In this document: positions 3,960 through 34,874 of the stretch, one piece after another
How the letters are laid out: every line of letters begins with the position of its first letter
How positions within the stretch are numbered: the stretch's first letter is position 1
Assembly: GCA_963281255.1 (NCBI GenBank)
Contig: OY725488.1
Location: forward strand, 9,769,524 to 9,833,523
Length of the DNA stretch: 64,000 bases
Origin: Aphrocallistes beatrix
Lineage: Eukaryota; Porifera; Hexactinellida; Sceptrulophora; Aphrocallistidae
Reading direction: 5' to 3'
Notes under the pieces: model-generated
Told to the model about the DNA's origin: nothing
What the model saw: only the letters and a program-made list of their open reading frames with translations
Databases searched by the model: none
Translations under genes and position numbers: made by a program

Positions 3960-4159
3960 TCTAAAACTGAAACTTTACTCAGAAACAAGGAAACACAAGA
4001 CACAACAACTTCCATACTCACATCCTCCTAACCACTTCACACTTTCACTTCCAATACCACATCTCATTCCAATACTGATACATCCAGATCTCAACTCACA
4101 TAAATACACTCTCATCAACTTGTGTTCTATCTAACAAAACGACACAATCCTAACACGTA
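3960..4159 (+). promoter_or_regulatory. Conserved NHL-family promoter, copy A
   Basis: About 200 bp immediately before the ATG is nearly identical at all six NHL loci (also 7090-7290, 10720-10921, 14850-15051, 30275-30477 and 34674-34874). It contains AAAACTGAAACT at 3963-3974, CACTTTCACTTCC at 4040-4052 (complement GGAAGTGAAAGTG) and an ATAAATA TATA-like box at 4100-4106, about 54 bp before the start codon. The first two sites fit the IRF core AANNGAAA. Regulation by an IRF-type factor is inference. Confidence 0.6.
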
Positions 4160-5334
4160 ATGGCGACAAGATTCCCACAATTGAATCCGACCAACATTCC
4201 ACTGGACACATTTGCAAGAGTGGAACAAGAGATCCGAACATACTTCGACACCATCATCAGGACAGTGACCATCAGAAGAGATGAGCTGCTCCAGCAACTC
4301 AACCATCTGAAGCAGGACTACCTGAGCAAGGAGGATCTGAGGAAGAAACAGGTCCAAGAGTTGGAGCAGATGATCGGACAGCTTGACAATATGAGTGTTC
4401 ATCAAAATCCAAATTTGAAATTCCACGAAGATCATATCAAGAAAACAGAAGAAGAACTGGAAAAGGCTGAACAACCAACTCCCCTCCCTGTCCCTCAGTT
4501 CAGGTCAGAAGATCTCCAATCTCTCTTGCAACATCTGGAGAGGATAGGAACTGTTCAGGAAGTGAAAAGACTCTACTCTGGTAAACTGGAACCTGTCAGG
4601 AGTATCGGGAAGGAAGGAAGTAAGAAAGAAGAGTTCAAATATCCTTGTGGTATCAGAATAGAAGGAGAGAATATCTATGTCTGTGATTATAACAACAAAA
4701 GAGTTCAAGTATTTTCTGACGACGGCAAATTCCTGACAGAATTCGGTAAGGGACAGCTAAGTAATCCTCACGATATAGCTATTTGTGATAAATGCGCTTT
4801 TATAAGCGATTGGGATCGAAATAAAGTCTTCAAATTCCAAATATCTAATTTTAAGTTAATGAATAAGAGTGTAGAAGGAGTGCTTACGTTTCCTAGAGGT
4901 CTAACAGTAGATAAGAATGAAGTGTTAGTTGCAGATTATTATAATAACAGAATAGCAGTTCTAAATTTAGATTAGACTATTTAAGAGAGATAGGAGAAGG
5001 AATGCTTAAATATCCATATGATGTAAAAACTGATTCGAACAAAATATTCGTAGTTGATGGAAATAGGTCTCATAGTGTGCATGTATTCTCAAAATCTGCT
5101 GATCTGTTGTATAGTGATAAGTGTGAAAAGTGATGCATTGTCAGATGTGTTTCTGTGTTTAGATCAGTTTAGTAATATTATAATTAGCAATTCAGAGATA
5201 AATCAATACAAATATTTACGTCAGAAGGAGAGTTAATACATTCCATTCAGTGTGGAAGATCTCCTCGAGGAATAGCAGTAACTAATAATAATACTATTGT
5301 GTGTGTTGTTGATAATTCAGTTGAATTCTATTAA
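4160..5334 (+). pseudogene. Coiled-coil/NHL protein, copy A (frameshifted)
   Basis: First of six copies of the family. The frame is open for 271 codons: coiled coil at about residues 18-105, proline-rich linker PTPLPVPQF, then NHL blades 1-3. Near 4970 the intact copies read GATTTACAC but this one has lost a base and changed another, giving GATTAGAC and a TAG stop. Further losses follow: two bases near 5115 (TATAGTGATAAG against TACAGTATGATAAG) and one near 5198 (TCAGAGATAAA against TCAGAAGATAAA). Blades 4-6 remain recognisable up to the ancestral stop at 5332-5334. The promoter is still well conserved, so a truncated three-blade product cannot be excluded. A pseudogene is the simplest reading. 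Confidence 0.85.
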
Positions 5335-5375
5335 TATTGATTGTGAACATTTTCTTATAATTCTTAAATTAAGAG

Positions 5376-5765
5376 GATTACTTCTAAACGGTATGGGATA
5401 CAGCTAATCGGATTCCAGATTCGAATAATACGCATTCAAATTAGTCACAGGTTAATTTTTCTAATTAATCATTCATTCCTAACTCTTTGTAATTATCAAT
5501 CAGTGCCACCTTATGCCACATACACCCATTTTGACCACTATACATGATGGCAATGAATTACCTATGGTGGCTCAGGCTGATAAGATTGTTCATTGAGTTG
5601 AGTAATTTATTAGTTATGTTCAACTATGACTAATTCGAATGTGTAGATTTCGAATCTGAAATCAGATTTTTAGTATCTCTTTGAATTTGAACGTATTGCC
5701 TTTCATGAAATAATCCGATTTAGTATTATTTGTATGCGAAAGAATCAAGTGTTGAAATACTTTTG
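5376..5765. repeat. Interspersed repeat R1, copy 1
   Basis: Starts about TTCTAAACGGTATGGGATAC. The same ~390 bp recurs at 53612-54005 and a shorter version at 61911-62110. I saw no inverted termini and no coding frame. It could be a non-autonomous element of unknown class. Confidence 0.65.
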
Positions 5766-5808
5766 TTATATATATACAAACATGAATCGTTTTAATTAAT
5801 AGTAAGGA
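5763..5808 (-). mobile_element. Solo 5' end of Helitron-like family H2
   Basis: On the minus strand this reads TCCTTACTATTAATTAAAAC, the H2 5' terminus, with T (5809) as the flanking base. Only about 45 bp is present. Confidence 0.5.
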
Positions 5809-6195
5809 TATTCCGCAATTCAAGAACTCCTTTCTAAAACACGTCATTCTTGTTTGTCCAGTCGGTCAGTATGCGAAAAACAGGACATAGACTCGGGATG
5901 AGGATTATTAGTAAACTTGGACGAGAATTCAGGATTTGTAAGCCGATTTCTTGAAATTTGTATTATGAGAAATAAAAGACGGTTATTTTCGCCGAGTTAT
6001 TTATAGATCAACAGCCTTCCTACTTAGATCATAATTTAGCTACCCTTAACTTTCTATTGTTACCGAATCTAATTTCAGAATTTCTTCACTAACGTTGAAC
6101 TCGGCTTGGTTGCTTCAGTTACGGTACTAAATTCTAATTACGAATTTTAGGTCTTTAAAATTTTATAAATGCCAAAGTAAAAAATAAAATCACTG

Positions 6196-6631
6196 AGCTT
6201 AGAACTTTGAAGGTCAATTCTCAGCGAAAACTCTGCGGATTCAAACCTGAAAAGCGGAAACACAAGAATGCAATTTTGAAAGCGAAACTGAAGAAACTGA
6301 GATCTTCTGTCCCACTCCTCAGCTGGACATGTCTGAGTGGGACGGACTGTCTCTGTCTTCTCAGCTGACCGCCGCGTTGAGGGATCTCGGGTTCTCCTCT
6401 CCCACTCCCACCCAGCGGCTCTGCATCCCAGCGGAGAGGGCAAGGAACGTGATGGGGTCTGCGGAGACGCTGGCCTTCGGACTCCCCGTCCTGTCCCGCC
6501 TCCTCGCCGAGGAGCCTGCGAGGGAGGGAGGGGACACTGGGTGTGTCGGGTGGGTAGACGACATCCCAGACGCTATGTTCCAGAAAATGCTTTCCGCCCC
6601 CCGACAAGAAATATCGCCTCTCCACCCCTGA
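6196..6631 (+). pseudogene. DDX24-like DEAD-box helicase fragment lacking Walker A
   Basis: A piece of the N-terminal half of a DEAD-box RNA helicase. From about 6215 the frame gives an acidic stretch, then SEWDGLSLSSQL, LGFSSPTPTQ (the Q-motif region, normally PTPIQ), IPAERARNVMGSAET and LAFGLPVLSRLL. In DDX24-type helicases AET is followed by GSGKT and then LAFG. Here AET runs straight into LAFG, so exactly five codons, the Walker A lysine included, are gone. The frame continues through GWVDDIPDAMFQKML to a stop at 6629-6631. No later helicase motifs follow, so it cannot be an ATPase. The same 5' boundary recurs at 28.9 and 32.8 kb. GC content is high and unlike the flanks. Confidence 0.75.
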
Positions 6632-7089
6632 TACATTCCTCTTTTACTAATTTAAATTTATCCTAATTGAATTACGCCTGCCGACCCTCAAATGAGAACG
6701 AAATTGTTTTCCATTGAGAAGAAAATAATTATTCTGTGGTAGTCAGATACATGATGGCAGCAACCGATTTGATAAATAAATTTAAGTGGGGCAAAGAAAA
6801 CGTAATGATAAATGCTCAACAGACCAACTACTTTAAACCGTGTAAAATGTTTGGCACGAACAAACCTTTTGCAACCTATTGGATTTTTATTTTTGATGAA
6901 CGAACTCTGAGAAATGTGAAACTCCAAATTCCTAATATGGAGTTTCCTCTAATATTAATATGAAACTAATCACACGTGTGTTCCTGCTTTACTTCACTTA
7001 TATGGTAACGTTCAAGATCATATGAATGGAATTAAATAGAAATGAAAGTCATTCAGTCATCTGAAAGGGACAAATACAATTAATTTCCT

Positions 7090-7290
7090 TTCTAAAACTG
7101 AAACTTTACTCAGAAACAAGGAAACACAAGACACAACAACTTCCATACTCACATCCTCCTAACCACTTCACACTTTCACTTCCAATACCACATCTCATTC
7201 CAATACAGATACACCCAGATCTCAACTCACATAAATACACTCTCATCAACTTGTGTTCTATCTAACAAAACGACACAATTCTAACACGTA
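7090..7290 (+). promoter_or_regulatory. Conserved NHL-family promoter, copy B
   Basis: Same block as copy A: AAAACTGAAACT at 7094-7105, CACTTTCACTTCC at 7171-7183, and a TATA-like ATAAATA about 54 bp before the ATG. Confidence 0.6.
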
Positions 7291-8466
7291 ATGGCGACAA
7301 GATTCCCACAATTAAATCCGATCAACATTCCACTCGACACATTTGCAAGAGTGGAACAGGAGATCCGAACATACTTTGACACCATCATCAGGACAGTGAC
7401 CATCAGAAGAGATGAGCTGCTCCAGAAACTCAACGATCTGAAGCAGGACTACCTGAGCAAGGAGGATCTGAGGAAGAAACAGGTCCAAGAGTTGGAGCAG
7501 ATGATCGGGCAGCTTGACGAAATGAGTGTTCATCAAAATCCAAATTTGAAATTCCACGAAGATCATATCAAGAAAACAGAAGAAGAACTAGTAAAGGCAG
7601 AGCAACCAACTCCCGTCCCTGTCCCTTATTTCAGCCCAGGAGATCTTCAATCTCTCCTGCAACAGCTGGAGAGGATAGGAACTGTTCAGGAAGTGAGAAG
7701 ACTCTACTCTGAAAGACTGGAACCTGTCAGGAGTATCGGCAAAGAAGGAAGCAAGAAAGGAGAGTTCAACTATCCTCATGGTATCAGAATAGAAGGAGAA
7801 AAGATCTATGTCTGTGATTCAAACAACAGAAGAGTTCAAGTATTTTCAAACGACGGCAAATCCTTAACAGAATTCGGTAAGGGACAGCTAGATTATCCTT
7901 ATGATATAGCACTTTGTGATAAATGGGCGTTTGTAAGCGATTGGGATCGAGATAAAGTCTTAAAATTCCAAATATATAATTTTAAACTAATGAATAAGAG
8001 TGTAGGAGTGCTTAGTCACCCTAGTGGTCTAACAGTGGATAAGAATGAAGTGTTAGTTGCAGATTTTTCTAATCACAGAATAGCAGTTCTAAATTTAGAT
8101 TTACACTATTTAAGAGAGATAGGAAAAGGAATACTTTCATTTCCATGTGATGTAAAAACTGATTCAAACAAAATATTTGTAGTTGATAGAAACAACTCTC
8201 ATAATGTGCATGTATTCTCAAAATCAGCTAATCTGTTGTACAGTATGATAAGTGTGAAAAGTGATGCATTCTCAGATATGTTTCTGTGTTTGGACCAGTT
8301 TAGTAATATTATAATTAGCAATAAATATGATAAATCAATACAAATATTTACGCCAGAAGGAGAGTTATTACATTCCATTCAGTGTGGAGGATCTCCTAGA
8401 GGAATAGCAGTAACTAATAATAATACAATTGTGTGTGTTGTTGATGATTCAGTTAAATTCTATTAA
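7291..8466 (+). CDS. Coiled-coil/NHL-repeat protein, copy B
   Basis: Intact single-exon gene for 391 residues. Residues 1-17 (MATRFPQL and following) lead into a charged helical segment at about 18-105 that should form a coiled coil (RVEQEIRTYFDTI, DELLQKLNDLKQDYLSKEDL). A linker PTPVPVPYF follows, then six NHL blades from about 150 to 391. Blade signatures include GEFNYPHGIRIEGEKIYVCD, LTVDKNEVLVADFSNHRIAV and FPCDVKTDSNKIFVVD. Six NHL blades make a closed propeller as in TRIM2/3, Brat and LIN-41, but there is no RING, B-box or signal peptide. It should therefore be cytosolic and oligomeric, with the propeller as the binding face for protein, RNA or another ligand. The ligand is unknown. It is closest to copy E (30.5 kb), sharing PYFSPGDLQSLLQ and the ADFSNHR blade, and the 3' flanks of B and E are nearly identical, so B and E come from a recent duplication. 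Confidence 0.85.
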   Translation: MATRFPQLNPINIPLDTFARVEQEIRTYFDTIIRTVTIRRDELLQKLNDLKQDYLSKEDLRKKQVQELEQMIGQLDEMSVHQNPNLKFHEDHIKKTEEELVKAEQPTPVPVPYFSPGDLQSLLQQLERIGTVQEVRRLYSERLEPVRSIGKEGSKKGEFNYPHGIRIEGEKIYVCDSNNRRVQVFSNDGKSLTEFGKGQLDYPYDIALCDKWAFVSDWDRDKVLKFQIYNFKLMNKSVGVLSHPSGLTVDKNEVLVADFSNHRIAVLNLDLHYLREIGKGILSFPCDVKTDSNKIFVVDRNNSHNVHVFSKSANLLYSMISVKSDAFSDMFLCLDQFSNIIISNKYDKSIQIFTPEGELLHSIQCGGSPRGIAVTNNNTIVCVVDDSVKFY

Positions 8467-8516
8467 TATTAATATAGTTTCATTCGTATACTCGTATTTC
8501 TTAAACATTTTTCTCA

Positions 8517-8547
<31 letters not shown>

Positions 8548-10450: not shown

Positions 10451-10585
10451 CAGAGGCGTCTAGGCCGCAACTTCAAAGGCTGTGCACACTAAAATTTCAC
10501 AAATTGGCATTGTGTCTGTGTGCCGTAAACCTCTCCGAATAGATTGGAATTGCCGTACCCTAAAATTGTGCTGGCTACGCCTTTG
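10451..10585. mobile_element. Small hAT-like MITE in copy C upstream region
   Basis: Present only at NHL copy C. The other loci read straight through AATCACACGTGTGTTCC. The element begins CAGAGGCGTCTAGG and ends GGCTACGCCTTTG, with ATCACG / ATCACACG on either side, which fits a decayed 8-bp duplication. 135 bp, non-coding. Confidence 0.65.
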
Positions 10586-10921: not shown

Positions 10922-12097
10922 ATGGCGACAAGATTCCCACAATTAAATCCGACCAACATTCCACTGGACACATTTGCAAGAGTGGAACAAGAGATCCGAA
11001 CATACTTCGACACCATCATCAGGACAGTGACCATCAGAAGAGATGAGCTGCTCCAGCAACTCAACGATCTGAAGCAGGACTACCTGAGCAAGGAGGATCT
11101 GAGGAAGAAACAGGTCCAAGAGTTGGAGCAGATGATCGGGCAGCTTGATGATATGAGTGTTCACCAAAATCCAAATTTGAAATTCCACGAAGATCATATC
11201 AAGAAAACAGAAAAAGAACTGAAAAAGGCTGAACAACCAACTCCCGTCCCTGTCCCTGGTTTCAGCTCAGAAGATCTCCAATCTCTCCTGCAACAGCTGG
11301 GGAGGATAGGAACTGTTCAGGAAGTGAGAAGACTCTACTCTGGAAAACTGGAACCTGTCAGGAGTATCGGGAAGGAAGGAAGTAAGAAAGGAGAGTTCAA
11401 CTATCCTCATGGTATCAGAATAGAAGGAGAGAATATCTATGTCTGTGATTATAACAACAAAAGTGTTAAAGTATTTTCTGACGACGGCAAATTCCTGACA
11501 GAATTCGGTAAGGGACAGCTAAGTAATCCTCACGATATAGCTATTTGTGATAAATGGGCTTTTGTAAGCGATTGGGATCGAAATAAAGTCTTCAAATTCC
11601 AAATATCTAATTTTAAGTTAATGAATAAGAGTTTAGGAGTGCTTAGTGTCCCTAGTGGTCTAACAGTGGATAAGAATGAAGTGTTAGTTGCAGATTGGTG
11701 GAATCACAGAATATCAGTTCTAAATTTAGATTTACACTATTTAAGAGAGATAGGAAAAGGTACACTGTCATTTCCATGTGATGTAAAGACTGATTCGAAC
11801 AGAATATTTGTAGTTGATAGAAATAGTTCTCATAATGTTAATGTATTCTCAAAATCAGCTGATCTGTTGTACAGTGTGATAAGTGTGAAAAGTGAACCAT
11901 TCTCAGATACGTTTATGTGTTTGGATCAGTTCAGTAATATTATACTTAGCAATTCAGAAGATAAATCAATACAAATATTTACTTCAGAAGGAGAGTTTAT
12001 ACATTCCATTCAGTGTGGAGGATCTCCTAGAGGAATAGCAGTAACTAATAATAATACTATTGTGTGTGCTGTTGATAATTCAGTTAAATTCTATTAA
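10922..12097 (+). CDS. Coiled-coil/NHL-repeat protein, copy C
   Basis: Intact 391-residue paralogue with the same layout as copy B: coiled coil about 18-105, linker PTPVPVPGF, and six NHL blades from about 150. The N-terminal ~100 residues are almost invariant against the other copies. The propeller differs at exposed loop positions: CDYNNKSVKVFS, SDWDRNKVFKFQ, VADWWNHRISV and SNSEDKSIQIFT replace the versions in B and E. The last blade (FIHSIQCGGSPRGIAV) is conserved. No RING or B-box, so ubiquitin-ligase activity is not expected. Single exon. The upstream region carries a private MITE at 10451-10585, but the proximal promoter is untouched. Confidence 0.85.
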   Translation: MATRFPQLNPTNIPLDTFARVEQEIRTYFDTIIRTVTIRRDELLQQLNDLKQDYLSKEDLRKKQVQELEQMIGQLDDMSVHQNPNLKFHEDHIKKTEKELKKAEQPTPVPVPGFSSEDLQSLLQQLGRIGTVQEVRRLYSGKLEPVRSIGKEGSKKGEFNYPHGIRIEGENIYVCDYNNKSVKVFSDDGKFLTEFGKGQLSNPHDIAICDKWAFVSDWDRNKVFKFQISNFKLMNKSLGVLSVPSGLTVDKNEVLVADWWNHRISVLNLDLHYLREIGKGTLSFPCDVKTDSNRIFVVDRNSSHNVNVFSKSADLLYSVISVKSEPFSDTFMCLDQFSNIILSNSEDKSIQIFTSEGEFIHSIQCGGSPRGIAVTNNNTIVCAVDNSVKFY

Positions 12098-13292
12098 TAT
12101 TGATATAGTTTTTCGTATACTGGTATATCTTAAACTTTCTTCTCAATTTGTTATTATAATTTTGTGTGGGTGTCAATTCAACTATTTCATCATATTCGTA
12201 AACACTCTTAAACTGAAGGGAATTTTTGAGAATAGATTGCTAGCATTTTAATAATTTCTATTCTCACTCATATTACTCTTATAATTATTCCACGATTCCA
12301 GTTAGCAGCAGAGAACTCATTACTAATACTAACATGTCGTCCTTGCTGTACGATCAATCCAATCCTGAACATAAGAGTATAGACTAGTGATGAAGATTAG
12401 AAAGACTTAGACTGAACTCAGGATTTGTAGGCACATTTCGTGAAATTTGTACTATGAGTTTAGAAGATATTTGCTTTCTGAAATTTATTTAGAGAGTCAC
12501 TGTTTATCAACCATTCCAGTGCCCACGTCCATGGATCTTAATTTAGCTACCTTCATCCATGAAATATTTGAAAATTTATTCTTCCTGGATCTAATTTCAG
12601 AATTCCTTTACAACGTTGAAAGTTAAGTTTGTTTGCACAGTGCGGAATTCACTTATTAGCAATATTGTTGCATTAGTCTACAATTTTTTAAGTCTCAAAT
12701 ATGATTTTCTAGCAATTTTATCCTTATTAGCAACCATTTTGTGAGCTGGACCCAAAGATGCTAATATGTCACTTCCACTCAAGGAATTATCTAGGAGCGC
12801 GAGACGCTCCTTTAGGCGTATGATTTTAACCCGCAAATAGTTTAGGAGCGTAAAAATTCCGAAAAATACCCAATTTACCCAATATTATAATGTTATTTAG
12901 CGATTTAGGCGTATGAAATTTTAAAAATTTTAGATTAGGAGCGTATCTCTGGAAGGCTGTATAATACCATGCTTCCACTGTATAATGTTATTTGGTGAAT
13001 TTCATACAAACGAGCTACCTTTAAAGCAGAGCATGCCTATGAGCTGAATTCTGCATAGAGTGACGTCATGCGGTGAAGATAGTGCATGAGAGTTGGTGTA
13101 AAGGTGTCCTGGTGTCGAGTTGCACGAGTGGCTATGTCTCAGTGACATTTATTGAATTCTTTCAACCCGAATCTGTTGTTATGACAGACGAGTTGAATAC
13201 TGACCAATCAGACGACTTGAAATTCTCCACTGATGGCTTCATCTACAGATTATCACTGTGGATGATGATAAGGATTGCACACGTACAAGCTA
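12098..13292. other. NHL copy C flank with hairpin-rich patch
   Basis: Array-wide flank up to about 12700. From 12790 to 12955 the motif AGGAGCG / CGCTCC occurs several times, including the hairpin AGGAGCGCGAGACGCTCCT. From 13060 to 13292 a unique GC-neutral stretch is open in the frame of the following LPAAT fragment, but I do not recognise it. Confidence 0.4.
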
Positions 13293-13816
13293 CGAGCACA
13301 CTCACGCCTCGCACACGCGGCTTCCACGCGCTGACGGCGAGTCTCCGTGCAGACGCACGCATGCTCTACCTCGTGGACATCACCATCCTGACTCCAGAGC
13401 TCGCCTCCGTAGGGACGGTGCTCTCGGGACAGGAGACGGAGTGTGACGTCATGCTCAGCTTCCACCCGCTCCCCTCCATCCCGCAGACGGAGCGGGGCAG
13501 CGGGGAGTGGCTCTACCAGCTGTTCAGAGACAAGGACGAGCAGGTGGACTTCCACAGGAGACACGGCCTCTTCCCAGGAACGCCGGTGGGGGTAGAGCTG
13601 CCGAGTCGCTGCCGCTACTACTCTCTGTTCTGGATGGCTGTCTCTCTCCTGCCTCCGCTCTCCCTCTGACTCTGCCTCGCGGCTGCAGAGCTGTACTGGC
13701 TGCTGCTGGCCTGCGTCTTGGCGCTGTGGGTGGTCGGGAGGCTCTTGGACAGACTTGTCGACCTAACAAAGATACACAAGGCTTCCAAGTACGGAACAGG
13801 AAACAAGCTTAACTAA
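13293..13816 (+). pseudogene. LPAAT 3' fragment 1 (premature stop)
   Basis: A partial copy of the acyltransferase at 1.9 kb, starting inside HLTPRTRGF and running to the normal C-terminus and stop at 13814-13816. It lacks the NHX4D and FPEGTRF motifs. A G-to-T change turns CTCGGACTC into CTCTGACTC (near 13668), an in-frame TGA within the C-terminal hydrophobic region. Upstream it is fused in frame to about 75 unrelated codons, so a 198-codon chimeric frame exists. The same TGA is present in the 33.4-kb fragment. Non-functional as an acyltransferase. Confidence 0.85.
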
Positions 13817-14849: not shown

Positions 14850-15051
14850 TTTCTAAAACTGAAATTTTACTCACTCACAAGGAAACACAAGACACAACAA
14901 CTTCCATACTCACATCCTCCTAACCACTTCACACTTTCACTTCCAATACCACATCTCATTCCAATACTGATACATCCAGATCTCAACTCACATAAATACA
15001 CTCTCATCAACTTGTGTTCTATCTAACAAAACGACACAATTCTAACACGTA
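14850..15051 (+). promoter_or_regulatory. Conserved NHL-family promoter, copy D
   Basis: CACTTTCACTTCC at 14932-14944 is intact. The distal site reads AAAACTGAAATT (14855-14866), still an AANNGAAA match. Confidence 0.55.
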
Positions 15052-16230
15052 ATGGCGACAAGATTCCCACAATTAAAACCAACCAACATTCCACTGGACA
15101 CATTTGCAAGAGTGGAACAAGAGATCCGAACATACTTTGACACCATCATCATGACAGTGACCGTCAGAAGAGATGAGCTGCTCCAGCAACTCAACGATCT
15201 GAAGCAGGACTACCTGAGCAAGGAGGATCTGAGGAAGAAACAGGTCCAAGAGTTGGAGCAGATGATCGGACAGCTTGACGATATGAGTGTTCACCAAATT
15301 CCAAATTTGAAATTCCACGAAGATCATATCAAGAAAACAAAAGAAGAACTGGAAAAGGCTGAACAACCAACTCCCCTCCCTGTCCCTCAGTTCAGGTCAG
15401 AAGATCTCCAATCTCTCCTGCAATATCTGGAGAGGATTGGAATTGTAGAGGAAATGAGTAGTCTCTACTCTTACAAATTGAAACCTGTATGGAATATTGG
15501 GAAGAAAGGAAACAAGAAAGGAGAGTTCGACTATCCTCATGGTATTAGAATAGAGGAAGAGAAGATCTATGTCTGTGATTCAAACAACAAAAGAGTTCAA
15601 GTATTCTCCAACGACGGTGCATTCTTAACAGAATTCGGTAAGAGACAGCTAATTTCTCCTTATGATATAGCACTTTGTGATAAATGGGCATTTGTAAGCG
15701 ATTCGATACCAAATGCAATCTTGAAATTCCTATTATCTAATTTTAAGTTAATGAGTAAGAGTGTAGAAGTGAATTACCCTAAAGGTCTGACAATGGATAA
15801 GAATGAAGTACTATTAGTTGCAGATTGTTGGAATCACAGAATAGCAGTTCTAAATTTAGATTTATACTATTTAAGAGAGATAGGAAAAGGAATGCTTAAA
15901 TATCCATGGGATGTAAAAACAGATTCAAACAAAATATTCGTAGTTGATAAAAAAGGCACTCATAATGTGCACGTATTCTCAAAATCAGCTGATTTGTTGT
16001 ACAGCATGATTAGTGTGAAAAGTGATGCAATGTCAGATGTGTTTCTGTGTTTGGATCAGTTTAGTAATATTATAATTAGCAATTCAAAAGATGAATCAAT
16101 ACAAATATTTACGTCAGGAGGAGAGTTATTAATACATTCCATTCAATGTGGAAGATCACCTATTGGAATTGCAGTAACTAATAATAATACTATTTTGTGT
16201 GCTGTTGATAATTCAGTTAAATTCTATTAA
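15052..16230 (+). CDS. Coiled-coil/NHL-repeat protein, copy D (most divergent)
   Basis: Intact single-exon gene for 392 residues. The first ~115 residues match the other copies closely (MATRFPQLKPTNIPLDTFAR, KEDLRKKQVQELEQMIGQL), ending in PTPLPVPQF. From residue ~125 it diverges: IGIVEEMSSLYSYKLKPVWN, SDSIPNAILKFLLSNF, KSVEVNYPKGLTMDKNEV and ADCWNHRIAVLN. A codon insertion gives LLIHSIQCGRSPIGIAV. All six NHL blades keep their hydrophobic pattern and the D-N-R/H turn, so the fold should be intact. Conserved coil, changed propeller and no stop codons suggest retained function with an altered binding surface. The 3' flank holds a Helitron-like insertion starting at 16388. Confidence 0.85.
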   Translation: MATRFPQLKPTNIPLDTFARVEQEIRTYFDTIIMTVTVRRDELLQQLNDLKQDYLSKEDLRKKQVQELEQMIGQLDDMSVHQIPNLKFHEDHIKKTKEELEKAEQPTPLPVPQFRSEDLQSLLQYLERIGIVEEMSSLYSYKLKPVWNIGKKGNKKGEFDYPHGIRIEEEKIYVCDSNNKRVQVFSNDGAFLTEFGKRQLISPYDIALCDKWAFVSDSIPNAILKFLLSNFKLMSKSVEVNYPKGLTMDKNEVLLVADCWNHRIAVLNLDLYYLREIGKGMLKYPWDVKTDSNKIFVVDKKGTHNVHVFSKSADLLYSMISVKSDAMSDVFLCLDQFSNIIISNSKDESIQIFTSGGELLIHSIQCGRSPIGIAVTNNNTILCAVDNSVKFY

Positions 16231-19569: not shown

Positions 19570-21235
19570 TTATAATGTCCTGTACTGATCCCTAGCGTGC
19601 GCTGAGGAACTACTGGTGGCTTTCAGCTCGAGGTTCCTCATGAGTAGTATCGTTTCCCCAGGAACAGGAATATTCGTCGGGTAATTAGGTAGGGGTAGAC
19701 AACTCAAGTAATCTGCATTGCCAATTTCCCCACCAGGTCTGTACACAATCTTGTAATCGTATGCGCCAAGAATAAGGGCCCATCTCTGTAGCCTTGCAGA
19801 TGCTAAAGGTGGGACTGGATGCGTGTGTCCAAAGATGTATTGTAGTGGCTTGTGGTCAGACTTGATCAAGAAGGGGCGTCCATAAAGAAATTGGTGGAAT
19901 CTTTTAACTGCAAAGATAATTGCCAAACCCTCCTTATCGAACTGTGAGTATTTCTTCTCCGCGATGGCAAGTGAGCGCGAAGCGTAATAGATAGGCCTCT
20001 CTGTGCCATCTTCTAAAACATGCGACAGTACGGCTCCAACTCCATATGGTGACGCGTCACAGATGACAACGAGGTCTTTATCGGGCTGAAAGTGAACGAG
20101 TATCTGGGATGATGATGATATCACCCCCTTTGCCTTCCGGAAGGCGTTCTCCTGGGCTCTACCCCAATCCCACTTGGCATGTTTCTGTAACAACCAGTGT
20201 AATGGAGCCATCAAGGTTGAGAGATTGGAAATGAACTTCCCATAATAATTCATAAGGCCTAGGAATGACCGTAATTCAGAGGTGGTCTTTGGGGTGGGCG
20301 CGTTCTGTATTGCTTGAGTCTTCTTGCCACTTAGTCTGAGGCCTTCAGCATCAATGACATGTCCCAGATATTCAATTGATGGGAGTAAAAATGCACATTT
20401 GTGTCGTTTGAGACGAAAACCAGCTTGCTTGAGACGCGATAGCACTGCCTTAAGGTTGTGAAGGTGATCTTCTTCATTAACGCCCGTTATAAGTATATCG
20501 TCAAGGTAAATGCAAACGCGTGGCAACTCTCGTAGGATGCTCTCCATAGTCCTCTGGAAGATCGCTGGTGCGGCCGATAAGCCAAACGGAAGGCGATTGT
20601 ATTGGAATAACCCCCTCTGTGTGTTTATGGTAGTGTATTTCTTCGACCGTTCTTCCAGGGGAATTTGCAAGTAGGCGTGGGCTAAATCCAGCTTGGTAAA
20701 TGATTTGCCTCCTGATAACGACGCTAGAAGGTCATCAATCCGTGGTAGCGGATAAGTATCTACTAATGCAAAGGCATTTGCGGTTACTTTATAGTCCCCA
20801 CAGATACGTACCGATCCGTCCCCTTTAACAATGGGTACTATTGGCGCTGCCCATTCCGCAAATCGTACAGGCTCAATGACGCCCTGACTCTGTAGCCGAT
20901 CAAGCTCCCTCTCCACTCTCCCGCGTAAGGCAAACGGTACCACCCTAGGGCGAAAAAGTTTTGGAAGAGCGTTGGGATCGCGACACAAATCTTTGCGCGA
21001 ATATCCCCCACACAACCAAGTTCATCTTGGAATAGAGGCGAGTAAAAATCCAAGATCCTCGTCAGCTCACTCGAGTGCGAATCTGATGAAGCTGGGACCA
21101 ATTCAATTCTATCTTCCTTAACCAATCACGTCCAAGCAGGCTGGGGCCATTTCCTTCTACCACTAGCAAGTTCAACATTTCTTCCTGCCCGTTAAGTTTT
21201 ACATCTACTTCAAGATTGCCCATTACCTTGATCTC
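19570..21235 (-). pseudogene. Ty3/Gypsy retrotransposon pol fragment (PR-RT-RNase H)
   Basis: Reading on the minus strand from about 21235: a protease C-terminal stretch with GPSLLGRDWL, then after frameshifts the linker FYSPLFQDELGCVGDI, then a long frame (21015-19570) holding reverse transcriptase and RNase H. RT motifs are VRICGDYK, KLDLAHAYLQIPL (first catalytic Asp), RLPFGLSAAP and IYLDDILI (catalytic YLDD). RNase H shows CDASPYGVGAVL, YSQFDKEGLAI and SDHKPLQYIF. It ends after YLSCLPLP, before integrase. No LTRs, primer-binding site or gag were found. At least two frameshifts (near 21100 and 20990) separate PR from RT. A dead, truncated element. Confidence 0.9.
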
Positions 21236-25504: not shown

Positions 25505-25568
25505 ATGTGTTGTTTAAAAAAAACAGAAAAACATAAACATAAAATTTAAACAGAGAAGAAAGCTAGAG

Positions 25569-26318
25569 ATGAATACTACTAGATGTATGAAATTAGTATT
25601 CTTACTGATTTGCAATTTCACCATTTTCAGTACAACTATAAACGCATCTTATTCAGATTGGAGGGGAATACCAGGAGGCCTCAAGCACGTGACAGCCTCA
25701 GTAAACTACCTCTGGGGTGTGAATATACATAACAGTATCTTCATGTGTGCAAGGCCCTGCACTGGAGCATGGAGACAGATTCCCGGATATAAGAAACAAG
25801 TAGATGCTAGTGATGAAGAAGTATGGGGCGTCAATAATGTAGATCGCATTTGGAAGAGGTCAGTAGATGGAACTGGTGATTGGAAGTATATAGGAGGAAG
25901 GTTGAAACATGTCAGCGCATCAGGAAATGGCTACGTATGGGGAGTGAACTCAAATGATGATATTTACAAGTGTAAAAAGCCATGCAACGGAGCGTGGGTT
26001 CATGTAGCAGGCAAACTTAAACAGATTGATGGAGGCCAGGATTTCGTATATGGCGTAAATAGTAGGAATGACATCTTTTCTAGACCTGTAGATGGGAGTG
26101 GCTCATGGCGACACATTCCTGGAAAAATGAAACACGTGACAGCTTCCGGTAGTCATGAAGTATTCGGTGTGGATGTTAATGACAATGTGTGGCGATGCCA
26201 AAAACCCTGCGTGGGAAATTGGGTGAGAATGAGTGCAAAGCTGAGTCAAATCGATGCAACTAACAAAGAATTAGTTGGAGTATCCTATTATAACTCCATT
26301 CAAGCCCATGACCTATAA
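25569..26318 (+). CDS. Secreted tectonin-repeat lectin (tachylectin-1 / fish-egg-lectin type)
   Basis: Intact single-exon gene for 249 residues. Residues 1-27 are a signal peptide (basic start, then LVFLLICNFTIFSTT). The mature part is six tectonin repeats of ~36 residues, each with a W-x-x-IPG-x-LKHV-x-A-S core and a (L/V)WGVN-x-x-x-x-I turn. Repeats with an extra Cys pair (MCARPCTGAW, KCKKPCNGAW, RCQKPCVGNW) alternate with Cys-free ones (KRSVDGTGDW, SRPVDGSGSW), the alternation known from fish egg lectins. Six repeats close a beta-propeller. Family members bind LPS, GlcNAc-type glycans or phosphatidyl lipids and act in innate immunity or egg protection. The ligand here is unknown. A stray repeat fragment at 21.26 kb shows that further copies exist or existed. 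Confidence 0.88.
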   Translation: MNTTRCMKLVFLLICNFTIFSTTINASYSDWRGIPGGLKHVTASVNYLWGVNIHNSIFMCARPCTGAWRQIPGYKKQVDASDEEVWGVNNVDRIWKRSVDGTGDWKYIGGRLKHVSASGNGYVWGVNSNDDIYKCKKPCNGAWVHVAGKLKQIDGGQDFVYGVNSRNDIFSRPVDGSGSWRHIPGKMKHVTASGSHEVFGVDVNDNVWRCQKPCVGNWVRMSAKLSQIDATNKELVGVSYYNSIQAHDL

Positions 26319-27116: not shown

Positions 27117-27140
27117 TATATTATGTTCATTTTTGAAGGT

Positions 27141-28548: not shown

Positions 28549-28750
28549 CATACATGTCAACTGTCTCGTTTTGGGGGAAGTCCCTCTTTTTCACTCTTCT
28601 ATTCAGTTAATTATCTCGAGGGTCCCGCTTTTACAAGGAATTTCGCCATTATATTCCGGTTTTGGATTCTATATATAGTACTATTCCATTGCGTCACGGC
28701 TTGTCCCGCAAAATCGTCCCCCTTTTTTCATGGTTCAAGTTGCATGTATG
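28549..28750. mobile_element. MITE family M1, copy 2
   Basis: Ends CATACATGTCAACTG and AAGTTGCATGTATG. Lies in the block duplicated at 32.2-32.9 kb, where copy 3 occupies the same place. Confidence 0.65.
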
Positions 28751-28892
28751 ATCTTAGATCAGAAGCACTCACATCAACTTCACAAGTAAACTCCAATCAT
28801 TGTCTCTTAAATTCGGTTCAACAGAGCAGTCACAGTAGTAAATTCTAATTACGAATTTTGGTTTATAAATTTTATAAATGCTAAGTATAAAA

Positions 28893-29060
28893 AGAAAATC
28901 ACTGAGCTTAGAACTTCGAAGGTCAATTATCAGCGAAAAGGATTTAAACCTGAAAAGCGGAAACACAAAAACGACAAGAAGTCTCTCCTCTCTCTCTCTC
29001 CCCCTCCAGGCCCTGGTGCTCAGCCCCACGCGGGAGCTGTGTCTACTCCTCTGCCACCAG
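28893..29060 (+). pseudogene. DDX24-like fragment fused to LPAAT, copy 1
   Basis: Same 5' boundary as the 6.2-kb fragment (LSLELRRSIISEKDLNLKSG in frame). The sequence then runs into a pyrimidine tract ending CCCTCCAG, a splice-acceptor remnant, and an exon giving ALVLSPTRELC, DEAD-box motif Ia. This joins the LPAAT sequence at TGCCACCAGGA. The retained intron end shows that it came from genomic DNA, not a cDNA. Confidence 0.75.
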
Positions 29061-29061
29061 G

Positions 29062-29706
29062 ATGCTAGCCACTTCTCCGTGCAAGTTCGTGCTCGCCATC
29101 TTCCCAGAAGGAACCCGCTTCACTCCTGAGAAGCACCTGGAGTCCAAAGCCATCGCCGCCAAGAAAGGGCTGCCCGTGTACAAGCACCACCTCACGCCTC
29201 GCACACGCGGCTTCCACGCGCTGACGGAGAGTCTCCGTGCAGACGCACGCATGCTCTACCTCGTGGACATCACCATCCTGACTCCAGAGCTCGCCTCCGT
29301 AGGGACGGTGCTCTCGGGACAGGAGACAGAGTGTGACGTCATGCTCAGCTTCCACCCGCTCCCCTCCATCCCGCAGACGGAGCGGGGCAGCGGGGAGTGG
29401 CTCTACCAGCTGTTCAGAGACAAGGACGAGCAGGTGGACTTCCACAGGAGATACGGCCTCTTCCCAGGAACGCCGGTGGGGGTAGAGCTGCCGAGTCGCT
29501 GCCGCTACTACTCTCTGTTCTGGATGGCTGTCTCTCTCCTGCCTCCGCTCTCCCTCGGACTCTGCCTCGCGGCTGCAGAGCTGTACTGGCTGCTGCTGGC
29601 CTGCGTCTTAGCGCTGTGGGTGGTCGGGAGGCTCTTGGACAGACTTGTCGACCTAACAAAGATACACAAGGCTTCCAAGTACGGAACAGGAAACAAGCTT
29701 AACTAA
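29062..29706 (+). pseudogene. LPAAT 3' fragment 3 with intact frame and new ATG
   Basis: Covers LATSPCKFVLAIFPEGTRF to the normal C-terminus, 214 codons without a stop. An A-to-T change at the fusion point turns the AAG of the parent (ACC AGG AAG CTA) into ATG, giving a start codon. Only about two residues differ from the complete gene downstream. Motif III (FPEGTRF) is present but the catalytic NHX4D half is missing, so it cannot be an active acyltransferase alone. I call it a pseudogene, with the caveat that the frame is open. Confidence 0.7.
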
Positions 29707-30274
29707 TTCCATCTGCTTTATCTGAGTTGTGGAATATTCTATTTTTACGCGATAGCTTTACTAGAGTTGTGTTTTATATTTTGCGCTTTCTATTAATGAT
29801 ATTGAATAACGTTATTTTATTCAAATTTGAAAACTCAAAATCTAACATCTAACAACTTAGTGTGACTGATGGGCTAGAGCTGTGGATAGATGAGTTATGC
29901 ATTTCATTTATTATTTAATTAAGATGCATATGAGTTCTCAGCAAAAGAATGGTCATTTCTTTTTATCCCTTTGACCCCAAGTATTTCCCGGGATATATTA
30001 ATTAATAAAAAATGTCTGGTACGAATAAACCCCGTGAAAGCTAGTGCACTTCCATACTTATGATGGATCATCAAAATCTGAGAAACATGTAACTCCAAAT
30101 TCCGAACTACGGAGTTTCTCCTAATATTAATATGAAATTAATCACATGCGTGTTCCTCTCCACTCCACGCATGTATATGGTAACTTTCAAGAAGAATCAT
30201 TTCGATATGAATTGAATAAAGTATAACTAAAAGTCATTACCTCATCTGAATAGGAGAAATGCAATTAATCTTCC
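29707..30274. other. LPAAT 3' flank and NHL copy E distal upstream
   Basis: Shared array flank. No gene seen. Confidence 0.5.
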
Positions 30275-30477
30275 TTTCTAAAACTGAAACTTTACTCAGA
30301 AGCAAGGAACACACAAGACACAACAACTTCCATACTCACATCCTCCTAACCACTTCACACTTTCACTTCCAATACCACATCTCATTCCAATACTCATACA
30401 TCCAGATCTCAACCCACATAAATACACTCTCATCAACTTGTGTTCTATCTAACAAAACGACACAATTCTAACACGTA
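30275..30477 (+). promoter_or_regulatory. Conserved NHL-family promoter, copy E
   Basis: AAAACTGAAACT at 30280-30291 and CACTTTCACTTCC at 30358-30370, both intact. Confidence 0.6.
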
Positions 30478-31653
30478 ATGGCGACAAGATTCCCACAATT
30501 AAATCCGACCAACATTCCACTGGACACATTTGCAAGAGTGGAACAAGAGATGCGAACATACTTCGACACCATCATCAGGACAGTGACCATCAGAAGAGAT
30601 GAGCTGCTCAAGCAACTCAACGATCTGAAGCAGGACTACCTGAGCAAGGAGGATCTGAGGAAGAAACAGGTCCAAGAGTTGGAGCAGATGATCGGACAGC
30701 TTGACGATATGAGTATTCACCAAAATCCAAATTTGAAATTCCACGAAGATCATATCAAGAAAACAGAAGAAGAACTAGTAAAGGCTGAACAACCAACTCC
30801 CATCCCTGTCCCTTATTTCAGCCCAGGAGATCTTCAATCTCTCCTGCAACAGCTGGGGAGGATAGGAACTGTTCAGGAAGTGAGAAGACTCTACTCTGAA
30901 AGACTGGAACCTGTCAGGAGTATCGGCAAAGAAGGAAGCAAGAAAGGAGAGTTCAACTATCCTCATGGTATCAGAATAGAAGGAGAAAAGATCTATGTCT
31001 GTGATTCAAACAACAGAAGAGTTCAAGTATTTTCAAACGACGGCAAATTCTTAACAGAATTCGGTAAGGGACAACTAGATTATCCTTATGATATAGCACT
31101 TTGTGATAAATGGGCGTTTATAAGCGTTTGGAATCCAAGTGAAGTCTTGAAATTCCAAATATCTAATTTTAAACTAATGAATAAGAGTGTAGGAGTGCTT
31201 AGTCACCCTAGTGATCTAACAGTGGATAAGAATGAAGTGTTAGTTGCAGATTTTTCTAATCACAGAATAGCAGTTCTAAATTTAGATTTACACTATTTAA
31301 GAGAGATAGGAAAAGGAATACTTTCATTTCCATGTGATGTAAAAACTGATTCGAACAAAATATTTGTAGTTGATAGAAATAACTCTCATAATGTGCATGT
31401 ATTCTCAAAATCAACTGATCTGTTGTACAGTGTGATAAGTGTGAGAAGTGATGTATTCTCAGATATGTTTCTGTGTTTAGATCAGTTTAGTAATATTATA
31501 ATTAGTAATAAATATGATAAATCAATACAAATATTTACGTCAGAAGGAGAGTTAATGCATTCCATTCAGTGTGGAGGATCTCCTAGAGGAATAGCAGTGA
31601 CTAATAATAATACTATTTTGTGTGTTGTTGATGATTCAGTTAAATTATATTAA
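30478..31653 (+). CDS. Coiled-coil/NHL-repeat protein, copy E
   Basis: Intact 391-residue single-exon copy, nearest to copy B (shared PYFSPGDLQSLLQQL, CDSNNRRVQVFSNDGK, VADFSNHRIAV, SNKYDKSIQIFT). Coiled coil about 18-105, six NHL blades from ~150. Its private changes sit on the propeller: ISVWNPSEVLKFQ replaces VSDWDRDKVLKFQ of B, and HPSDLTVD replaces HPSGLTVD, while the coil differs by only a few residues. Like the other copies it has no RING, B-box, signal peptide or membrane segment. The ~290 bp after the stop are nearly the same as after copy B, down to TTA repeats of different length. Confidence 0.85.
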   Translation: MATRFPQLNPTNIPLDTFARVEQEMRTYFDTIIRTVTIRRDELLKQLNDLKQDYLSKEDLRKKQVQELEQMIGQLDDMSIHQNPNLKFHEDHIKKTEEELVKAEQPTPIPVPYFSPGDLQSLLQQLGRIGTVQEVRRLYSERLEPVRSIGKEGSKKGEFNYPHGIRIEGEKIYVCDSNNRRVQVFSNDGKFLTEFGKGQLDYPYDIALCDKWAFISVWNPSEVLKFQISNFKLMNKSVGVLSHPSDLTVDKNEVLVADFSNHRIAVLNLDLHYLREIGKGILSFPCDVKTDSNKIFVVDRNNSHNVHVFSKSTDLLYSVISVRSDVFSDMFLCLDQFSNIIISNKYDKSIQIFTSEGELMHSIQCGGSPRGIAVTNNNTILCVVDDSVKLY

Positions 31654-32425
31654 TATTAATATAGTTTTATTCGTATACTCGTATTTCTTAAACATTTTTC
31701 TCAATTTGTTATTATTATTATTATTTGTGATTGTCAATTAAACTATTTCTTCATATTTGCTGGTTCTTTTCGTAAACACTCTTGACCTGAAGAGAATTTT
31801 TGGGAATAGATTGCTAGCATTTGAATAATTTCTAATCTCACTCATATCACACTTAAGTATTCCACGATTCCAGTTAACAACTGAGAATTCCTTACTAGTA
31901 TTAACATGTCGTCCTTGTTGTACGATCAATCCAATACTGAACATAAGAGTATAGACTAGGGATGAAGATTAGTAGAACTTTGGGCGAGAACTCAGGATTT
32001 GTACTATGAGTTTTATAAAATATTTGTTTTCTCCAAATTATTTCTAGAGCCACGGCCTATCAACCATACCAGAGTCTACGTCGATTGATCTTAATTAGCT
32101 ACCCTCACCCAAAGATATTTGAAAAATTATTCTTACTAAATCTATTTTCAGAATTGCTTTACTAACGTTGAACTCAGTTTGGTTAGTACAGTGGAGTCGC
32201 ATATTATTATAAACCCCCTTACTACAAGAAGATATTACATTACTGTATTAGTAATATTTTTTCTATTTCCAAATGTAGATTTTATATCAATTCTGTTTCC
32301 CTATTAGATGTGTCATTTTGGTACACAAGATAGGACACAATACAAATTAATAACTAGATAATGCTAGCCATAAAAACAACTCGATTACCAGAATAATATT
32401 AGATTATGAAAATTGAATCTTTAAA
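31654..32425. other. NHL copy E 3' flank
   Basis: Array-wide flank. From ~32200 it is nearly identical to 28340-28550, marking the start of a >600-bp segmental duplication. No gene seen. Confidence 0.55.
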
Positions 32426-32628
32426 CATACATGTCAACTGTCTCGTTTTGGGGGAAGTCCCTCTTTTTTCACTCTTCTATTCAGTTAATTATCTCGAGGG
32501 TCCCGCTTTTACAAGGAATTTCGCCATTATATTCCGGTTTTGGATTCTATATATAGTACTATTCCATTGCGTCACGGCTTGTTCCGCAAAATCGTCCCCC
32601 TTTTTTCATGGTTCAAGTTGCATGTATG
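32426..32628. mobile_element. MITE family M1, copy 3
   Basis: Same position and sequence as copy 2 in the duplicated block, so it predates the duplication. Confidence 0.65.
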
Positions 32629-32774
32629 ATCTTAGATCAGAAGCACTCACATCAACTTCACAAATAAACTCCAATCATTGTCTCTTAAATTCGGTTCAAC
32701 AGAGCAGTCACAATAGTAAATTCTAATTACGAATTTTGGTTTATAAATTTTATAAATGCTAAGTATAAAAAGAA

Positions 32775-33460
32775 AATCACTGAGCTTAGAACTTTGAAGG
32801 TCAATTCCCAGCGAAAACTCAGCGGATTCAAACCTGAAAAGCGGAAACACAAAAACGCCAAGAAGTCTCTCCTCCAGGGTTGCCATCTCCTCAGTCATAA
32901 AAAAAGGACACTCAGGGATAGATCGAAGATTTAGAAAAACGATGTAAAGAGAGAGCGTAGCGAACGACAATAATGACTGTCTGGGTGCTAGCGCCCCAAG
33001 GAATTGTTTTGAATGTTTTTAGTGTGCTTCTATATCATTATATTGGATCTCTGATCCAATATAATGATATAGTAGCACAGTTCTAAAATGAGTGCTGGTG
33101 TCCGGCCGTATGTGGTGTACAGACCTGAGTTTAAGAGATATCGGTTTCAATTTTTTTGTGAAGCTGCGGACATATATGTAAATTCTCACCTAGGGTTTCG
33201 ATTTCCAAAATATGCTAAATCATCATGATAGCCATTCTAGTATATAATCTACAAGTAAAACGTAAAAGGACAAGAATGAGTTTATAAGAACAAAAAGGAC
33301 AAAAGGCGAAAAAAAGGACAAAAAGGACAGGTAGCAAAAATGAAGGACTGTCCTTTCTAAAAAAGGACGTATGGTAACCCTGCTCTCCTCTCCCTCCCGC
33401 CCCCTCCAGGCCCTGGTGCTCAGCCCACGCGGGAGCTGTGTCCACACCTCTGCCACCAGG
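32775..33460 (+). pseudogene. DDX24-like fragment fused to LPAAT, copy 2, split by a MITE
   Basis: The same chimera as at 28.89 kb, interrupted by the hAT-like element 32875-33382. After the element the acceptor remnant and ALVLSP follow. One C is missing from CAGCCCCACG, shifting the frame (SPRGSCVHT instead of SPTRELC) and putting it in line with LPAAT. Confidence 0.75.
32875..33382. mobile_element. hAT-like MITE with CTCTCCTC duplication
   Basis: Termini CAGGGTTGCCATCTC and GTATGGTAACCCTG. Perfect 8-bp duplication CTCTCCTC at 32867-32874 and 33383-33390. The paralogous site at 28.98 kb is uninterrupted and carries the target once. The interior is rich in AAAGGAC and holds a 20-bp-stem hairpin at 33030-33072. 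Confidence 0.92.
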
Positions 33461-34105
33461 AAGCTAGCCACTTCTCCGTGCAAGTTCGTGCTCGCCATCT
33501 TCCCAGAAGGAACCCGCTTCACTCCTGAGAAGCACCTGGAGTCCAAGGCCATCGCCGCCAAGAAAGGGCTGCCCGCGTACAAGCACCACCTCACGCCTCG
33601 CACACGCGGCTTCCACGCGCTGACGGCGTGTCTCCGTGCAGACGTACGCATGCTCTACATCGTGGACATCACCATCCTGACTCCAGAGCTCGCCTCCGTA
33701 GGGACGGTGCTCTCGGGACAGGAGACGGAGTGTGACGTCATGCTCAGCTTCCACCCGCTCCCCTCCATCCCGCAGACGGAGCGGGGCAGCGGGGAGTGGC
33801 TCTACCAGCTGTTCAGAGACAAGGACGAGCAGGTGGACTTCCACAGGAGACACGGCCTCTTCCCAGGAACGCCGGTGGGGGTAGAGCTGCCGAGTCGCTG
33901 CCGCTACTACTCTCTGTTCTGGATGGCTGTCTCTCTCCTGCCTCCGCTCTCCCTCTGACTCTGCCTCGCGGCTGCAGAGCTGTACTGGCTGCTGCTGGCC
34001 TGCGTCTTAGCGCTGTGGGTGGTCGGGAGGCTCTTGGACAGACTTGTCGACCTAACAAAGATACACAAGGCTTCCAAGTACGGAACAGGAAACAAGCTTA
34101 ACTAA
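33461..34105 (+). pseudogene. LPAAT 3' fragment 4 (premature stop)
   Basis: Begins at RKLATSPCKF and reaches the normal C-terminal stop at 34103-34105, but CTCGGACTC has become CTCTGACTC near 33957, the same TGA as in fragment 1. Extra changes (TACAAG to GCGTACAAG context, LRADVRMLYIVD) show that it is older than fragment 3. Motif III is present, NHX4D is absent. Confidence 0.85.
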
Positions 34106-34673
34106 TTCCATCTGCTTTATCTGAGTTGTGGAATATTCTATTTTTATGCGATAGCTTTACTGAAGAGTTGTGTTTTATATTTTGCGCTTTCTATTAATGA
34201 TTTTGAATAACGTTATTTTTCTTCAAATTTGTAAAACTTTAATTATCTAGTATCCTCGTGTAGCATGTCGGCAGGAGCTGTGGACAGATAAGTCATATTT
34301 GTGAAAAATTGTGCATTTATATTACACATATCTTCAGCTTTACATAATTAAACCACTTTTAGTTTGCTAATTTCGGCCCTGAAATAAGATAAAAATTTAG
34401 TTTAGAGAGGAAAATAACTATTTTGTGGTAATCAAATTAAGATGTCAGTAACCGATTTGATGGATGAATTTATTGAGCAAACGTATAATCCCAAATTCCT
34501 ATATAGAATCTCCTCTATTTTTAGAATTAAACTAATCACATGTGTGTTCCTATCTCACTCTACTTCATGTGGTAACTTTCAAGATAGAAACATTTAATGT
34601 GAATGGAATTAAATAGAATTGAAAGTCATTTTGCAATTATTCATCTGAATAAGACAAATACAATCAATCTTCC

Positions 34674-34874
34674 TTTCTAAAACTGAAACTTTCCTCACTA
34701 ACAAGGAACACAAGACACAACAACTTCCATACTCACATCCTCCTAACCACTTCACACTATCACTTCCAATACTACATCTCATTCCAATACTGATACATCC
34801 AGATCTCAACTCACATAAATACACTCTCATCAACTTGTGTTCTATCTAACAAAACGACACAATTCTAACACGTA
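34674..34874 (+). promoter_or_regulatory. NHL-family promoter, copy F (one site mutated)
   Basis: AAAACTGAAACT at 34679-34690 is kept. The second site reads CACTATCACTTCC (34755-34767), breaking the GAAA core. It precedes a pseudogene. Confidence 0.55.

Follow-up and report, generated by a model that had tools for sequence, protein, structure and literature searches.

In vertebrates, interferon and interferon-stimulated genes are controlled through the positive regulatory domain elements PRDI and PRDIII and the interferon-stimulated response element (ISRE), which contain the core recognized by interferon regulatory factors (IRFs), AANNGAAA; PRDI is shared there by IRF and PRDM1 (BLIMP1). NHL propellers are best known as RNA- or protein-binding parts of TRIM-type proteins. 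Fish finTRIM genes and other diversified immune families are characterized by duplication, broken copies, and C-terminal diversification. Here we describe an array of NHL genes and their promoters in a 64,000-nucleotide stretch of DNA from the glass sponge Aphrocallistes beatrix (contig C1, positions 9769524-9833523; the whole stretch is called the window below), together with the relatives of these genes in the genome that was scanned (100,537,919 bases, or 100.5 Mb, in 28 contigs).

The NHL promoters of the window carry, upstream of a TATA-like box, a proximal site with the same core as the vertebrate elements, including GAAGTGAAAGTG, which we take to be a 12-base match to vertebrate PRDI, and the same genome encodes IRF-type DNA-binding domains. 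The locus differs from the vertebrate PRDI/PRDIII arrangement in that a single, apparently selected core lies within a TATA-type NHL promoter and the PRDIII-like partner is not specially kept. Furthermore, no NF-kB consensus is present within 250 bp in any of the 18 clade promoters read, unlike in vertebrate interferon elements. The proximal site is most likely an IRF-type site, as predicted from its letters, of one NHL clade; this clade has about 19 single-exon members, and several are broken.

The proteins of this clade consist of an N-terminal, helical-looking part followed by an NHL propeller. Domain PF01436 (NHL) is present in all three members scanned by Pfam (C, D, and E), and sequence searches of the PDB match the propeller to Thin (5.6e-29), TRIM3 (3.4e-26), TRIM2 (1.4e-25), and TRIM71 (1.8e-23). 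Unlike the TRIM-NHL proteins (TRIM2, TRIM3, TRIM71, Thin, and Brat), the same three members match neither a RING nor a B-box domain at E 0.001; in addition, the genes are single-exon, they are present in about 100 or more copies, and the loops of one inferred face diversify. With finTRIM and the other diversified immune families, the NHL family shares growth by duplication, the presence of broken copies, and a diversifying C-terminal region; in contrast to finTRIM, the domain in question is a propeller instead of B30.2, and the host is a glass sponge.

Promoter sites in the window

The six promoters and the genes that they precede (copies A to F) are arranged as follows.

3954..4159, + strand: promoter and 5' leader of copy A, about 206 bp (17 copies by search, A included)
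3963..3974, + strand: distal ISRE/PRDIII-like site of copy A, exact match to AAAACTGAAACT
4040..4052, - strand: PRDI-like site of copy A, exact match to CACTTTCACTTCC (complement GGAAGTGAAAGTG)
4100..4106, + strand: TATA-like box ATAAATA of copy A
4160..5331 (end approximate), + strand: NHL copy A, with a broken frame that stays open as far as 4975
7171..7183, - strand: PRDI-like site of copy B, exact match to CACTTTCACTTCC
7291..8466, + strand: NHL copy B, intact, single exon, 391 amino acids
10802..10814, - strand: PRDI-like site of copy C, exact match to CACTTTCACTTCC
10922..12097, + strand: NHL copy C, intact, single exon, 391 amino acids; PF01436 at E 1.5e-19
14855 (start): distal site of copy D, AAAACTGAAATT (GAAATT)
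14932..14944, - strand: PRDI-like site of copy D, exact match to CACTTTCACTTCC
15052..16230, + strand: NHL copy D, intact, single exon, 392 amino acids
30358..30370, - strand: PRDI-like site of copy E, exact match to CACTTTCACTTCC
30478..31653, + strand: NHL copy E, intact, single exon, 391 amino acids
34755..34767, - strand: broken PRDI-like site of pseudogene F, CACTATCACTTCC
34874..35835 (end approximate), + strand: NHL copy F, a pseudogene interrupted by stops and an internal deletion
7094, 10725, 30280, and 34679 (starts): exact AAAACTGAAACT in the other copies

A preliminary description of this DNA had reported the PRDI-like site in five of the six copies, the distal site in all six, and a TATA-like box about 48 bp downstream of the former. 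These letters were confirmed: the site is exact in five copies and altered in F, the distal site is exact in all copies except D, and in copy A the box follows after 47 intervening bases. The box reads CATAAATA in the six window copies and TATAAATA in those of contig C9 and some of contig C14. Within the PRDI-like site, the core TTTCACTT (complement AAGTGAAA) fits the IRF core, the string with which the promoters were scanned. The part that is invariant in intact copies is TTTCACTTC (complement GAAGTGAAA), located 112-126 bp before the ATG across the clade and 74 bp before it in the C18 copy.

The same description had also taken it as a sign of function that only the wrecked copy F has lost the site. 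This argument was dropped, since five other broken or truncated copies retain the core, namely the frame-broken A, 9a, 9b, and 1g and copy 14c, which has a stop after 364 amino acids. The core is also lost in a fragmentary copy, C17.

Conservation of the proximal and distal sites

Among the six window copies there are 17 variable columns over 206 promoter columns, and 144 of 194 windows of 13 bp are kept as well as or better than the PRDI-like site (for the distal site, 148 of 195 windows of 12 bp). Conservation within these copies was thus rejected as evidence for either site, because the neighboring promoter is equally conserved. The promoter distance K among B, C, D, and E is 0.025-0.040, compared with 0.08-0.29 just upstream, and synonymous change is lower in codons 1-90 than in codons 91-391 in 4 of 11 pairs at p <0.05 (D-E 0.003, C-D 0.017, 14a-14b 0.034, 14b-14e 0.045; all uncorrected). 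These values fit a partial homogenization of the promoter and gene start.

More distant copies separate the two sites. A search with the promoter of copy A (~206-207 bp) gave 17 copies on C1, C9, C14, C16, and C17 that are 73-100% identical over the matched part; here the PRDI-like window ranks within the top 18 of 194 and the distal site at 79 of 195. In a set of intact or nearly intact copies (10 sequences) the corresponding figures are 10/194 and 132/195. The TATA window used in these counts and in the parsimony counts below is misplaced by about one base. Another 17 promoters (A-F, 14a-14f, C16, 1g, 9a, 9b, and C15) were analyzed with a tree and parsimony; C18, whose site MAFFT misplaced, was left out. 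On this set the core TTTCACTT has a single inferred change in its 8 columns (in F), against a promoter mean of 10.9-11.1 and an expectation of 11.2 changes per 8 columns at third positions of codons 1-35. For the 11 intact copies it has none, versus a promoter mean of 9.3-9.4. No 8-bp windows of the promoter are slower than those beginning at 4042, 4043, and 4044. Poisson figures for the core are 1.9e-4 and 8e-5, values that take no account of rate variation or of how the window was chosen. The proximal core is therefore conserved beyond its neighboring bases on the 17 promoters. In the 12 columns of the distal site, 17 changes were counted, and 113 of 195 windows do equally well or better; as this site is no better kept than its neighbors in 6 or in 17 promoters, it was rejected as a second selected element. 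Consequently, the excess conservation by which the preliminary description had proposed to test both sites appears for the PRDI-like core once diverged copies are included (1 change versus ~11), and neither among the six window copies nor for the distal site.

Two of the 14 diverged paralogues that were read also retain the proximal site. L043 (on C15), with a synonymous divergence (dS) to copy C of 1.15-1.49, has ACTTTCACTTCC at about -126 in a promoter that is 49% identical to that of A; the chance of TTTCACTTCC in 300 bp is 0.0003. L041 (on C18; dS 0.78-1.21) has TTTCACTTC at -74, for which the chance in 300 bp is 0.007. Both chances are from a first-order Markov model and are uncorrected for the 14 paralogues. 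In the remaining 12 (L045, L046, and L048-L057), TTTCACTT was not found within 300 bp. Thus, the earlier wording of an expanded NHL family stands, whereas the site is a feature of one clade and not of the whole family. A core that sits in the slowest-evolving part of the promoter, and that survives between paralogues whose synonymous sites are almost saturated, is probably a functional binding site. By eye, a AAAACGAAAC string in L043 aligns with a neighboring block and not with the distal site.

Genome-wide, the exact 13-mer CACTTTCACTTCC is present 23 times, compared with 4 for a reversed control; 11 of these are in the NHL clade and 12 elsewhere. When the latter were sorted by eye, four fell in one dispersed repeat (L061, L065, L066, and L067), one in a CACTTT-type repeat (L064), and five overlapped open frames of the opposite strand (L058, L059, L060, and L063 twice), while L068 has nothing near. 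The only promoter-like case outside the clade is L062 (around 2000), in which the 13-mer lies ~156 bp before the ATG of a 344-amino-acid frame that is metallo-beta-lactamase-like by eye. The pattern TTTCACTTC, 19-49 bases, then ATAAATA occurs 37 times (reversed control, 12): 13 are the NHL clade, 10 start TTTCACTTCAACATTCC and belong to a dispersed repeat, and 14 are others, none of which stands at an NHL start among the matches listed, by comparison by eye. A genome-wide battery based on the 13-mer was thus rejected, the non-clade cases being mostly repeats or open frames, and no wider promoter battery was seen in either scan. The dispersed repeat of L061, L065, L066, and L067 carries CACTTTCACTTCCAACTTGGGGATTAAA, another carries TTTCACTTCAACATTCC, and a CACTTT-rich piece related to the latter is inserted upstream of copy 9b.

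Candidate factors and alternative explanations

The genome contains two matches to the IRF-type DNA-binding domain (PF00605), one of which, on C11 (6.4e-31), is full. The C11 gene, L009, aligns to IRF4 at 1.5e-30, and its RCALN faces RCALN in the recognition helix. These residues belong to the helix by which IRF contacts GAAA; an IRF with the GAAA-contacting helix is thus encoded in this genome. Passages of a report on Amphimedon describe IRF as nuclear in amoebocytes that have engulfed symbionts, with activation of IRF, NF-kB, and STAT on uptake (PMC13372038).

Apart from an IRF-type site, three other explanations of the conserved letters have to be weighed. Recent duplication with gene conversion, leaving a motif without function, would account for the uniform conservation of the six promoters, for their low K, and for the low synonymous change in early codons. 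However, conversion homogenizes tracts, not 8 bases, and L043, 14f, and C16 retain 12 of the 13 site bases although divergence runs through their whole promoters (49%, 69%, and 72% identity to A); duplication alone, which the preliminary description had offered as another cause, fits the uniformity of the six copies and is very unlikely given the persistence of the core in these three. A PRDM1/BLIMP1-type repressor would suit many of the same letters, in which case the selected bases would be AGTGAAAG and the clade would stay silent until released. The PRDM1/BLIMP1 consensus AG[CT]GAAAG is indeed present in 16 of 18 clade promoters, the misses being pseudogene F and C18. In the intact C18 gene, however, GAAAA replaces GAAAG and AAGTGAAA is retained, and we regard such a repressor site as quite unlikely.

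The remaining explanation has ETS proteins as the binders, either by themselves or through an ETS-IRF composite element (EICE) of the kind found in immunoglobulin light-chain enhancers, GGAANNGAAA. This sequence is present at the site in 14 of 18 clade promoters read, and with six matches to ETS domains in the genome, ETS proteins are available. Nevertheless, in three copies (14e and C18, both intact, and the broken 1g) the base that follows TTTCACTTC is changed from C to T, giving in 14e the variant AGAAGTGAAAGTG; GGAA is lost yet AAGTGAAA is kept, so GGAANNGAAA does not hold as a unit. Therefore, IRF (or PRDM1) is favored over ETS, and an ETS or composite site seems decidedly improbable.

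Diversification of the propeller loops

Variability was followed along the propeller of copy C, in which each blade is marked by a proline.

11333..12094 (codons 138-391), + strand: NHL propeller of copy C, with variable phases counted from P162, P203, P244, and P285

In eight young intact copies, variability over the four blades peaks at phases -2, -1, +1, and +15 to +18 from the blade proline, these being averages over four blades and not a statement about every position in every blade. The seven phases were picked by eye from the C1 and C14 copies (-4 and +19, although raised too, were not included), so that the L049-type group is the only independent test of them. By the usual order of NHL strands, used in place of a structure model, we take these phases to be the D-A and B-C loops, two per blade, which would lie on one face. 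The ratio of nonsynonymous to synonymous differences (pN/pS; uncorrected, all pairs, which pools non-independent pairs) in the 28 variable-loop codons is 1.34 in C1, 1.76 in C14, and 2.21 in the L049-type group. In the same order, the 32 opposite-loop codons give 0.22, 0.13, and 0.35, and the other codons of the propeller (within 150-325) give 0.29, 0.51, and 0.71. Random phase sets reached the observed loop variability in 0 of 20,000 trials in each of the three groups. With disjoint pairs, each of the three groups shows a significant contrast between these loops and the remaining propeller, and the ratio at the loops significantly exceeds neutrality at 3.71 in the L049-type group (p 0.003) and at 2.07 when all 7 pairs are pooled (p 0.004). 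L046 and L048, which are nearly identical, do not differ at these loops, and this pair carries no information.

These values could reflect nothing but relaxed constraint on surface loops, which often vary, in genes without a recognition role; several copies are broken, and neither the C1 pairs (1.14, p 0.61) nor the C14 pairs (1.74, p 0.19) by themselves depart significantly from neutrality. However, pN/pS is 0.13-0.35 in the opposite loops of these blades, and it is 2.21 to 3.71 in the variable loops of the L049-type group, depending on the pairs used. Relaxed constraint thus appears unlikely, and the data probably reflect diversifying selection on a putative binding face. Passages in two papers place the known RNA contacts of NHL domains at the top face and state that proteins may bind either face (PMC9070667, PMC8251876). 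Loop diversification is a property of the wider family and is independent of the IRF-like site; one of the three groups is without the site.

Proposed mechanism

The members of the clade share a TATA-type promoter in which TTTCACTTC is the most constrained upstream element. An IRF-family factor would bind the core AANNGAAA, present as AAGTGAAA, and would induce the members of the clade jointly when microbial signals arrive. The variable loops would form one propeller face that contacts diverse ligands, microbial or self, and the clade would serve as a diversified recognition or effector set. Taken as one explanation, an IRF-type site with co-induction and a diversified set has, in our judgment, an even chance of being correct. 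That the NHL clade is an immune-induced battery is a reasonable hypothesis, and it is strengthened because the propellers have diversified. The IRF-type promoter of the preliminary description is retained in so far as the core appears to be selected and two IRF-type domains are encoded; it is not retained for the distal site, and it applies to one clade.

Several observations weigh against an IRF-driven, diversified battery. The leader block TGTGTTCTATC is likewise slow to evolve, making the core one of several conserved blocks, and C17, with its broken core, was not among the 30 loci taken from the protein search and lies outside the parsimony set. The second IRF match (on C4, 2.9e-22) covers 83 of 105 positions (1-83) with a stop inside, perhaps at an exon end, and the IRF-association domain PF10401 was not found in a genome search run without a positive control. 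The letters of the site fit PRDM1/BLIMP1 as well. The intact relative L045 and 11 further diverged paralogues are without the core, including the L049-type group, which has the strongest loop excess, and the loop excess over neutrality falls short of significance in the C1 and C14 pairs taken alone.

If IRF does drive the clade, there would be an IRF-controlled gene battery in a lineage without interferon, none being known in sponges to our knowledge, and IRF targets from before interferon would become testable. A diversified face would add NHL propellers to the scaffolds of recognition repertoires in animals. A broader proposal, which we consider rather unlikely, is that glass sponges have an inherited immune repertoire of ~100 or more single-exon NHL propellers with one selected face, whose clades would be wired separately, one to IRF via the PRDI-like site and another possibly to STAT via TTCNNNGAA; IRF control of a recognition or effector battery would then predate interferon.

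The NHL family and the surroundings of the array

The NHL family of this one genome is large, with about 100 or more single-exon copies; a protein search gave 106 matches from the best 105 of 1,964 candidates, a few of which are pieces of one gene. Literature searches on NHL expansion in sponges or NHL diversification found no account of this family, and the main text of a paper on the glass sponge Oopsacas does not mention NHL, interferon, or IRF (PMC10280926). By eye, the N-terminal 135 residues of the clade proteins hint at a coiled coil.

A second NHL clade has a promoter of its own, with 35 matches. All six copies read (L049, L051, L052, L054, L055, and L057, which are close relatives) have TTCNNNGAA at about -170 from the ATG, a palindrome that resembles the STAT site known as the gamma-activated sequence (GAS). 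The combination of CTTCNNGGAA and then TATAAATA occurs at 25 places, 19 of them inside the 35 promoter matches, and 31 times in the reversed control.

Other genes and repeats lie among the NHL copies of the window. An acyltransferase gene (its first copy, when scanned, matches PF01553) and three incomplete duplicates of its end are found at 1848-3029, 13064-13669, 28954-29706, and 33344-33958; since they are interspersed with the NHL copies, the unit of duplication probably includes the end of the acyltransferase gene. A reverse transcriptase/RNase H frame of a retrotransposon, probably Ty3-like, is at 19570-21021 (- strand), and a tectonin-domain protein of ~250 amino acids (PF19193, 3.6e-43), possibly a secreted lectin, is encoded within the array at 25566-26318 (+ strand). 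An open reading frame of 369 amino acids at 38637-39746 (+ strand), hydrophobic and membrane-like by eye, has no Pfam and no PDB match. The inverted repeat 39959-40190/40513-40744, possibly a foldback element, has arms of 232 nt that are 98% complementary with a spacing of 322 nt.

Genome setting

According to parts of its genome report, the related Aphrocallistes vastus has a genome of 80.32 Mb with 19,578 genes, and 12,409 of its transcripts are single-exon (PMC10282587). Contig C28 of the present genome (17,996 bases) is mitochondrial. Its cox1 contains 16 AGA codons, which in a by-eye reading against the best PDB match (8ugh) face Ser 6 times, Ala 4, Gly 3, Asn 2, Lys 1, and Arg 0; AGR in this gene thus appears to be read as serine, not arginine. 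Sections of a mitochondrial study give AGR as Ser as common to the three glass sponges then known and not to demosponges, but present in some bilaterians too, and state that nad3 adjoins cox1 in Aphrocallistes (PMC2267718). On C28, a frame that is nad3-like by eye lies directly before cox1.

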